From NCBI GenBank assembly GCA_015488295.1, contig WFOC01000002.1:1-46926 (forward strand): 46,926 nt of DNA, read 5' to 3'. Position numbers and translations under genes: made by a program. The notes under the pieces are model-generated. The model was not told the DNA's origin. It was given only the letters and a program-made list of their open reading frames with translations, and made no database searches. Below, piece by piece: positions 30,442 through 33,920 of the stretch. This DNA comes from Gammaproteobacteria bacterium (lineage in GTDB: Bacteria; Pseudomonadota; Gammaproteobacteria; SZUA-229). Positions within the stretch are counted from its first letter, which is position 1. Every line of letters starts with the position of its first letter.

Positions 30442-31071
30442 ATGGCTTTATTTATCGAAGCGTTTTTGCAGAAATGGCTGCGCGTATGGATGGCTCTTGC
30501 GCTGGTGACCAGTCTCTATGCCTGCGGTTTTCAGCTGCGTGGTTCGATAAATTTATCCAGTGAAATGTCGCCCATATATATCGAACAGAACAGCGTGTTT
30601 GATCTGGCGCGAGAAATAAAAACCCTGCTGGCTGCCAACCAGATTGCCATGGCTGAAACAGCAGCGCAGTCTAAATCGCAATTGATTCTGCTCGATGACA
30701 ATAAAAGTCAGAGTGTACTTTCAGTCGATGGTAGCGGACAGGCGCGGGAATACCTGCTGACTTACAAAGTTAACTTCGTCATAAAGGTCAATCAGAAAAA
30801 CAGGGCGCAGGTTGTTGTGGTGCCGGACTCGCTCACCGTCAGTCGCACCTGGCTGTTTGACCCCGAGGCGGTGCTGGCTGTTACCAACGAAGCCGAACTT
30901 TTGTATAACGATATGCGACGCGAAGCAGCGCGTTTGATTCTGTTGAAGATAAATGCACGTTCGAAAAACGGTGAGGCAAATATCTCAGGGGGTGCTACTT
31001 CATCAGGTGTCAGAGACAGGCTTGTCTATGACACCGGTTTTATGGTCTCCGCCCCCGATTTTGTGCAATGA
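30442..31071 (+). CDS. lptE: LPS-assembly lipoprotein LptE
   Basis: The 209-aa protein has a lipoprotein signal (WMALALVTSLYAC, lipobox L-Y-A-C) followed by GFQLRGSINL, typical of LptE. LptE plugs the LptD barrel in the outer membrane and helps LPS reach the surface. The track's start (TTG 30427) overlaps leuS; ATG 30442, 1 bp after the leuS stop, is preferred. The leuS-lptE-holA order is conserved in gammaproteobacteria. The stop overlaps holA by four bases. Confidence 0.92.
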   Translation: MALFIEAFLQKWLRVWMALALVTSLYACGFQLRGSINLSSEMSPIYIEQNSVFDLAREIKTLLAANQIAMAETAAQSKSQLILLDDNKSQSVLSVDGSGQAREYLLTYKVNFVIKVNQKNRAQVVVVPDSLTVSRTWLFDPEAVLAVTNEAELLYNDMRREAARLILLKINARSKNGEANISGGATSSGVRDRLVYDTGFMVSAPDFVQ

Positions 31072-32078
31072 ACGTTCGCCCGGATCAGCTGCAGTCTGTC
31101 ATCGTGAAAAACACTTACCCGGTGTACATGGTCAGTGGTGATGAACCTTTGCAGCAGATGGAATCGCTGGACCTGATCCGCGCTTTTCTGCGCGATAACG
31201 ATTATTCCGAAAGAGAAGTGCTGGATGTTGATGCGCAGTTTGACTGGCAGCGCCTGCTGGATGAAGCCGCCAACATGTCGCTGTTTGCCGCCCGCCGCAT
31301 CGTCGAGCTGCGTTTGCCTTCAGCCAAACCCGGCAGGCAGGGCTCACAGGTGATCAAGGATTACCTGGCGCGACCGCCGGAAGACACGGTGCTGATTATC
31401 AATGCCGGCAAGGTCGATGGCAATGCTAAAAAATCTGCCTGGTATAAAGCGGTCGATCAGAACGGCCTGGTGGTGCAGTGCTGGCCGGTGCCCATCGACA
31501 AATTATCGCCCTGGTTGCGTCAGCGTTTCAAAGCGCGTGACATGGATGCCGATGACGATGTGCTGGCGTATATTTCGCAGCATGTCGAAGGCAATTTGCT
31601 GGCGGCGGATCAGGAAATTGAAAAACTTTATCTGCTGCTGGGGCCGGGAAAAATCACTTATGCCGATGTCGCTGAAGCGGTGACTTCGCAGTCACGATAC
31701 AGCGTGTTTGAACTGGTGGACATGATGTTGACCGGCAACCGTACGCGTGTGGTTCGAATTATTGCCGGCCTGAAAGCCGAAGGCATCGTACCGGTGATTG
31801 TGAACTGGGCGCTGGCGAAAGATATCCGCCTGCTGGCACTGGTCGCGCAGGATGCTTCGTCGGTCGATTTTACGCTGAAACGTTCCGGTGTGTGGTCGAG
31901 TCGGGTCGCCATGTTCAAGTCCTGCCTGTCGCGACATAGCTTGCGTTCGCTGCAACTGATGCTGAAGCGCTGCGCTTATCTGGATGCGGTGAGCAAGGGC
32001 ATGATCGATGCCAATATCTGGGATGAGATCGAGACGCTTTGCGTGCGGCTGGCGGGCACAACGCGGGCTATGCGCTAG
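31068..32078 (+). CDS. holA: DNA polymerase III subunit delta
   Basis: The 336-aa protein shows the HolA pattern: YPVYMVSGDEPLQQMESLDLIRAFLR at the N-terminus, DTVLIINAGKVDGNAKKSAWYKAVD, and the helical C-terminal domain (YSVFELVDMMLTGNRTRVVRIIAGLKAEG). Delta is the wrench of the clamp loader that opens the beta clamp. Length is normal (E. coli 343). It starts inside the lptE stop (ATGA overlap). Confidence 0.95.
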   Translation: MNVRPDQLQSVIVKNTYPVYMVSGDEPLQQMESLDLIRAFLRDNDYSEREVLDVDAQFDWQRLLDEAANMSLFAARRIVELRLPSAKPGRQGSQVIKDYLARPPEDTVLIINAGKVDGNAKKSAWYKAVDQNGLVVQCWPVPIDKLSPWLRQRFKARDMDADDDVLAYISQHVEGNLLAADQEIEKLYLLLGPGKITYADVAEAVTSQSRYSVFELVDMMLTGNRTRVVRIIAGLKAEGIVPVIVNWALAKDIRLLALVAQDASSVDFTLKRSGVWSSRVAMFKSCLSRHSLRSLQLMLKRCAYLDAVSKGMIDANIWDEIETLCVRLAGTTRAMR

Positions 32079-32191
32079 CCGCCGTTTCCCTTTGCATGAA
32101 TTATTGTTCGGGTCAGAAAAACAAGCCGTATTTTATTCTCTGCGAGAGAAGTATTCGTATATTGCTTTTATAGCGGCAACATTGAAAGCAT

Positions 32192-32222
32192 AAAAAAACC
32201 GCTGACATGTCAGCGGTTTTTA
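32192..32222 (-). terminator. Symmetrical terminator between holA and the 52-aa ORF
   Basis: AAAAACCGCTGACATGTCAGCGGTTTTT is a perfect palindrome with a stem of about 14 pairs, an A-tract before it and a T-tract after it. It lies 114 bp after the holA stop on the plus strand and 24 bp after the stop of the minus-strand 52-aa ORF. It can therefore end transcription in both directions. Confidence 0.9.
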
Positions 32223-32245
32223 AGTGGTGATTTCCTGATCCGTGA

Positions 32246-32404
32246 TTACTCTTCATCAGCCCAGGAAATGTAGTCGGTGTTAAAGTCTTTTTTGTCGACC
32301 GTGGCGACGACGGTTGTTGGCACCTGTTCTGCGCGTGCGTCAGCGGTTTCGGTGATCAATACTGCGGCTACGGTCATGTTGATAATTGCAAGTGTTGCTA
32401 ACAT
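32246..32404 (-). CDS. Small (52 aa) possibly exported protein, unrecognised
   Basis: This ORF is below the track cut-off. It reads MLATLAIINMTVAAVLITE..., then TADARAEQVPTTVVATVDKKD, and ends DYISWADEE. A clear Shine-Dalgarno (GGAGAA, four bases before the ATG), an AT-rich promoter with a TTGACT -35, and a perfect terminator 24 bp after the stop frame it. The first 20 residues are hydrophobic with a following ADA-R/RAE stretch, so it may be a signal peptide or a membrane helix. There is no basic n-region, which weakens the signal-peptide reading. The mature part would be about 28 acidic residues. I recognise no family. An alternative is that the transcript (about 240 nt) is a small RNA. Confidence 0.65.
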   Translation of the reverse strand: MLATLAIINMTVAAVLITETADARAEQVPTTVVATVDKKDFNTDYISWADEE

Positions 32405-32434
32405 TGGATTCTCCGTATTTAGTTAAGTAGTGTA

Positions 32435-32465
32435 AGTATATTATAATATTCTAATATAAAGTCAA
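32435..32465 (-). promoter_or_regulatory. Promoter of the 52-aa gene
   Basis: On the minus strand TTGACT (five of six) is followed by an AT-rich region with -10 candidates TAATAT (16-bp spacer) and TATACT (19-bp spacer). The latter two lie within the palindrome ATATTATAATAT. The leader would be about 25-30 bases and contains the Shine-Dalgarno. Confidence 0.6.
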
Positions 32466-32624: not shown

Positions 32625-33920
32625 ATGAGCGCAAACATCGAAACGCTGATCACCGATATCGCCGATTATATGAGCCGCGTCGGCCTGGCCGCGCGTGAAG
32701 CTTCCCGAGCTATCGGTCGGGCATCAACAGCCCAGAAAAATCAATCACTTAATGCAATTGCTGAGCAGATTCTGGCACAGGCTGGTGAGCTTAAGCGGGC
32801 CAATGCACTGGATCTGACTGCAGGCAGGGAAAAAGGTCTGGCCGAAGCCCTGCTTGACCGACTGGAACTGACTGATGAACGTATCGCCTCAATGGCGGAA
32901 GGTTTGCGGCAGATCGCGACATTACCCGACCCAATCGGTGTTATTTCCAACCTGGCGTATCGGCCATCGGGCATTCAGGTGGGGCAGATGCGGGTGCCTT
33001 TGGGGGTAATCGGCATTATTTACGAGTCTCGTCCCAATGTGACCGCAGATGCCGCCGGTTTGTGTCTGAAATCCGGTAATGCAGTGATTTTGCGCGGTGG
33101 TTCTGAAGCTGTTCATTCCAATCAGGCGATTGCGGCCTGCATCAAGCACGGGCTGGAAGTGGCTGGTCTGCCGGCCGATGTGGTGCAGGTGATCGAGACC
33201 ACCGACCGCGCTGCCGTGGGCGAGCTGTTGCGCCTGAAAGATTCGGTGGATGTGATTATTCCTCGCGGTGGTAAAAGCCTGATCGAGCGCATCACCAACG
33301 AGTCAGAAGTGCCGGTGATCAAACATCTTGATGGCATTTGCCATGTTTATATTGATGATGAAGCAGACAGGGAAAAAGCCCTGAATGTGGCGTTCAATTC
33401 CAAAACCCAGCGCTACGGCACCTGTAATACCATGGAAACCCTGCTGCTGGCAGCGTCAGCGGCGGCACGCATCCTGCCGGATCTGGCGAAGATGTATGTC
33501 GAGAAAGGTGTCGAACTGCGCGGCTGTGAAAATACGCAGGCGCTGCTAAAAGACAGTAATATCGCCGTGCTTGCCGCTGAAGAAGAAGACTGGTCGACCG
33601 AATACCTGGCACCGGTGCTGTCGATCAAGATTGTCGAAGACATCGATGCTGCTATCAGCCATATCAACAAATACAGCTCGCAGCACACCGAGTCCATCGT
33701 CACCGAAAACTACACAAAATCCCGCCAGTTCCTGCGCGAAGTTGATTCAAGCTCGGTCATGGTCAACGCCTCAACCCGCTTTGCCGACGGCTTTGAATAC
33801 GGCCTGGGTGCAGAGATTGGCATTAGCACGGATAAGCTGCACGCGAGAGGCCCGGTGGGGCTGGATGGTTTGACGAGTATGAAATATGTGGTGCTGGGGG
33901 ACGGACAGGTCCGTCAATGA
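32625..33920 (+). CDS. proA: Gamma-glutamyl phosphate reductase
   Basis: The 431-aa enzyme reduces gamma-glutamyl phosphate to glutamate semialdehyde with NADPH, the second step of proline synthesis. It has the aldehyde-dehydrogenase-like fold, with [33 protein letters not shown], the catalytic cysteine C267 in [13 protein letters not shown], and the C-terminal [26 protein letters not shown]. proB is not adjacent. The last codons and stop run into an AGTGAAA-type repeat that fills the gap to nadD. Confidence 0.98.

Follow-up and report, generated by a model that had tools for sequence, protein, structure and literature searches.

A 52-codon gene between holA and proA has its promoter inside a predicted BigR/SqrR-type operator

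Results

A small transcription unit between holA and proA

The gap between holA and proA contains a compact unit on the minus strand. In the window (the whole 46,926-nt stretch of DNA that was analyzed), TTGACT, a 16-nt spacer, TAATAT, GGAGAA, a 52-codon open reading frame (ORF), and a terminator follow one another in that order (Table 1). The first-pass annotation had proposed a promoter, a Shine-Dalgarno sequence, an ORF, and a terminator here, and all four are in the sequence where it placed them. The unit stands alone because holA is convergent with it and proA divergent from it. The terminator had been described as perfect, with 14 pairs, and 24 bp after the stop codon. Its position is correct and the palindrome AAAAACCGCTGACATGTCAGCGGTTTTT (32221-32194, then T's) forms a perfect inverted repeat of 14 bp at the DNA level, but the hairpin predicted for the RNA has 12 pairs and a 4-nt loop.

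Table 1. Features of the holA-proA region of the window
Feature	Position	Strand	Remarks
holA	31068-32078	+	convergent with the unit
-35 element TTGACT	32460-32465	-	TTGAC kept in three homologous loci
22-bp near-palindrome TATATTAGAATATTATAATATA	32437-32458	-	predicted BigR/SqrR-type operator over promoter spacer and -10
-10 element TAATAT	32438-32443	-	within right arm of the predicted operator
Shine-Dalgarno GGAGAA	32409-32414	-	kept in all four loci
52-codon ORF MLATLAIINMTVAAVLITETADARAEQVPTTVVATVDKKDFNTDYISWADEE	32246-32404	-	ATG 32404, stop TAA 32248-32246; homologues, dN/dS, hydropathy
Intrinsic terminator	32187-32221	-	12-pair hairpin, 4-nt loop, then T run
proA	32625-33920	+	divergent from the unit

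The arrangement of the signals is above chance. Taken singly, promoter-like matches (2 versus 1.3 expected from shuffles) and terminator-like matches (1 versus 0.7) were no more frequent than chance. We place the unit above chance because three other genomes have the four signals in the same order and position, and because none of 5000 shuffles of the holA-proA intergenic region contained the 22-bp palindrome that underlies the promoter (arms with ≤1 mismatch).

The ORF is under purifying selection

Homologues of the 52-aa protein are present at the same position in other members of the genus. A search of 96 related genomes identified homologues in G017 (65% identity, E 7e-14), G012 (61%), and G006 (60% over residues 1-40). 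All three occupy the proA-holA gap and are oriented as in the window, on contigs from Gammaproteobacteria MAGs, one of which is labelled Thiotrichaceae (n=3). In the substitution analysis that the first-pass annotation had suggested, dN/dS across the six pairs was 0.08-0.39 (Nei-Gojobori), pN/pS was below 98-100% of simulated random placements, and substitutions were mostly at third codon positions. Frame-disrupting indels, which had been named as a sign against the ORF, were absent from the three full-length copies. The G006 homologue is 44 aa long and has no YISW tail, indicating weaker constraint on the C-terminus than on the N-terminus.

The signals around the ORF are also conserved. In an alignment of the four loci, TTGAC, the block TATATTAG.AT.T.ATAATATA, GGAGAA, and the first codons were conserved and the flanks were not. 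A terminator is at the same place in all four loci, each time with a different stem sequence. Based on the same-position homologues, the dN/dS values, the intact frame, and the terminators with differing stems, we consider it well supported that the ORF is a real, translated protein-coding gene known from this genus only. The proposal of a complete single-gene unit for a 52-aa protein is thus borne out by syntenic homologues, purifying selection, and signals conserved in four genomes. Two other readings of the stretch were rejected: an overlapping 49-aa ORF on the plus strand, which is not open in G012, and a leader peptide or attenuator, because holA is convergent and nothing lies downstream in the same direction.

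The gene is patchily distributed within the genus. No homologues were found beyond it in 96 relatives and 369 genomes of the class, a scan of GTDB contigs returned the same three homologues and no others, and there were none in plasmids, viral contigs, or the PDB. Matches with E values of 0.04-0.9, for example inside the ftsZ and groEL loci, were rejected as spurious. On a holA tree with weak support, the carriers are the basal G006, a group with G012 and G017, and the window's genome, a pattern that fits a gene already present in the ancestor of the genus, with several later losses. In G014, which is near the window's genome, a degenerate promoter palindrome is kept (2 mismatches; 0.15% of shuffles) and the ORF is lost.

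The product is small, acidic, and probably membrane-anchored

The 52-aa product is hydrophobic over residues 2-18 and has an acidic tail, in agreement with the initial description, and has no basic N-terminus. All four homologues have a 17-residue hydropathy of 2.0-2.5, and the net charge of the full-length copies is -6 to -7. Structure prediction gave a helix over residues 2-26 in a low-confidence model that was otherwise uninformative. With one predicted hydrophobic N-terminal helix, the product is probably in or on the inner membrane. As the first reading had it, the protein matches nothing known: there was no match in Pfam, NCBIfam, or the PDB.

The promoter coincides with an operator-like palindrome

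The promoter spacer and the -10 box of the small gene coincide with the 22-bp palindrome TATATTAG-N6-CTAATATA. In the window's genome, the exact 22-mer has 8 sites with ≤3 mismatches versus 0 for a reversed control. Across 17 genomes of the genus, TATATTAG-N6-CTAATATA has 182 sites with ≤2 mismatches, compared with 48 control sites. Relaxing the search to a 20-mer with 3 mismatches gave no enrichment over control, so only near-exact sites are informative. In the small-ORF promoters, the box directly follows TTGAC and its right arm contains TAATAT, and a protein bound there should therefore block RNA polymerase.

The core of this box is associated with genes for BigR-like repressors. We examined 29 loci that match the BigR model across the class Gammaproteobacteria. 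In 13 of them, the core [AT][AT]TTAG-N6-CTAA[AT][AT] occurs in the 280 nt that precede the bigR-like gene, versus 0.04 expected from dinucleotide shuffles (maximum 1 in 1000); the other 16 lack it. Of 21 core matches in 94 kb, 19 fall in these upstream windows, including those of loci with 63% GC. The simplest reading of this position is that the box is an operator of the BigR/SqrR repressor family, and assignment of the small-gene promoter to this operator class appears well supported. The promoter thus lies inside a predicted BigR/SqrR-type operator, one common to sulfur-metabolism genes, which goes beyond the first-pass annotation.

The box precedes sulfur-metabolism genes

The genes at good sites recur between genomes of the genus. 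Our list comprises inspected sites and is not a full census; weak boxes, such as that before ccoN, were left out. This site, L041:3043-3064 (G000:C7), is box-like with 2 mismatches in the arms and immediately precedes the cbb3 oxidase genes ccoNO.

In the window's genome and its relatives, the box precedes a rhodanese gene followed by an MBL-fold dioxygenase-like gene, whose product matches the GloB and Blh models with scores below their cut-offs. The box also precedes sulfur-globule protein genes (Pfam SGP, PF17228), including tandem arrays with one BigR-type box per gene: L040 and L038 (G000:C3 and C107), L161 (G012:C40), and L162 (G004:C90). The SGP matches in these arrays are above the Pfam cut-off. 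Further boxes are before a YceI gene, by a HAD/NUDIX pair, and in the divergent promoter of DUF1249 and RND-adaptor (membrane-fusion) genes, both in the window's genome (L044:2959-2980) and in eight relatives (L062-L064, L066, L069, L072, L073, and L169).

The stretch from the BigR-type box to the rhodanese gene holds a second unlisted small hydrophobic ORF of 31-40 aa (MIFDALTY.IIAV..ILTFTV...), at L042:3099-3194 (G000:C45) and L059:994-1116 (G009). This ORF was not seen in G015, G012, G017, or G008.

A BigR-like protein is the likely repressor

The closest protein to these repressors in the window's genome is a 112-aa BigR-like protein (G000:C89:17041-17376, hereafter C89) that retains both cysteines, C37 and C103. 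Its best PDB match is Xylella BigR (3pqj, E 1.4e-17). The Xylella BigR sequence in our alignment was checked against the 3pqj alignment only. C89 scored 78 bits against the BigR equivalog NF040642, below the curated cut-off of 155, and we therefore file it as BigR-like and not as BigR; none of 274 class genomes reached that cut-off. An orthologue, 92-99% identical across the genus, is present in nearly all genus genomes, and all of these genomes have the box. There is no box before the BigR-like gene itself in this genus. The repressors L116 and L126 are 66 and 64% identical to C89, have the same recognition helix, and have the box in their own promoters. C89 is the likely repressor acting on the box.

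At two other loci (L130 and L131, in G004 and G002), the BigR-like match crosses an in-frame TAG near its end, and the protein may be slightly shorter. L053:9-680 (G000:C73) encodes an ArsR-rhodanese fusion with a weak, 3-mismatch box in its divergent promoter.

Discussion

We think that the unit encodes a small, acidic, probably membrane-anchored protein that is derepressed by sulfane sulfur under control of a BigR-like repressor, and we give this reading as a whole a probability of about 0.7. When sulfane sulfur is absent, an ArsR-family repressor of the BigR/SqrR type, likely C89, would sit on the 22-bp palindrome and cover the spacer and the -10 element. Sulfide oxidation would raise persulfide and polysulfide, and a bridge would form between the two cysteines of the repressor, as has been reported for SqrR and homologous proteins (PMC9774250). 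The bridged repressor would leave the DNA, allowing synthesis of a ~240-nt mRNA that ends at the terminator. The product would then work on excess sulfane sulfur alongside the sulfur-globule proteins, the persulfide dioxygenase, the YceI protein, and the RND adaptor. Its role in handling or storing sulfane sulfur is suggested by the co-regulated genes and hydropathy only, and its membrane location, like this role, is guilt by association.

Other explanations of the locus differ in how well they fit. An ORF that arose by chance in AT-rich intergenic DNA would agree with single signals that stay within shuffle expectation, but is contradicted by the syntenic homologues, dN/dS, and the conserved signals, and we give it almost no credence. 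It is improbable that the unit is a small regulatory or dual-function RNA in which the ORF is secondary. The unit is short with a strong terminator, and several near-start codons (GCAATTATCAA) also show nucleotide-level conservation; however, third-codon-position substitutions predominate with the low dN/dS, the terminator stems differ in sequence, and Rfam gave sub-threshold matches only. More improbable still is a product that acts as a type I-like small hydrophobic toxin or a membrane-acting stress peptide and not as a sulfur-handling accessory. Its size, hydrophobic N-terminal helix, and patchy distribution would suit such a peptide. Type I-like toxins usually have a basic tail, whereas the tail here is acidic, and the other strand of the region has no promoter-like site. 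The fixed chromosomal position and an operator common to sulfur genes also argue against a toxin.

The identity of the repressor leaves more room for doubt. A regulator other than C89 might bind the box, for example the ArsR-rhodanese fusion, which has a 3-mismatch box before its gene, or a BigR missing from the assembly; the genome encodes several ArsR proteins and is 88% complete. We consider this unlikely, though less so than the alternatives above, given the co-occurrence of C89 orthologues and the box across the genus and the boxes in the promoters of L116 and L126. Control by the BigR-like protein C89 is the reading that we prefer.

The proposed regulon resembles those of BigR, SqrR, and YgaV in its operator class, a rhodanese/persulfide-dioxygenase target, and a genome-encoded repressor with two cysteines. 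Known persulfide-responsive relatives include E. coli YgaV and R. capsulatus SqrR, and the deduced SqrR site, ATTC-N8-GAAT (PMC9774250), differs from the palindrome described here. Unlike those regulons, the one predicted here would also take in sulfur-globule genes, YceI, the RND adaptor, and a small orphan protein. The small gene has the same operator as the sulfur-globule protein genes (PF17228), but its product has neither an SGP match nor Gly/Asn/Tyr-rich repeats. Stress-induced small bitopic membrane proteins are a general bacterial class, and the product is like them in having one short N-terminal hydrophobic stretch, fewer than 60 aa, and its own regulated promoter and terminator. Its membrane insertion is a prediction, and it showed no sequence relation to any named family.

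A further step, for which we would stop somewhat short of even odds, is that members of this previously undescribed genus-level family serve as dedicated effectors in a BigR-like regulon for sulfane sulfur. In these uncultured sulfur oxidizers, the regulon would control globule formation together with persulfide detoxification, and the small protein would act in globule storage or membrane sulfur trafficking. Among the paper listings covered by our literature search, none describes a persulfide-sensing repressor controlling sulfur-globule protein genes. The operator suggests that such a repressor switches these genes in one uncultured group of sulfur-oxidizing Gammaproteobacteria. More generally, small proteins left unlabelled by annotation and homology searches can be assigned through the conservation of their operators. 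The operator gives an anonymous micro-gene a likely role and a testable physiological context, and we believe that its importance is in linking this orphan protein with a regulon for sulfane sulfur, one that also appears to control the sulfur-globule proteins.
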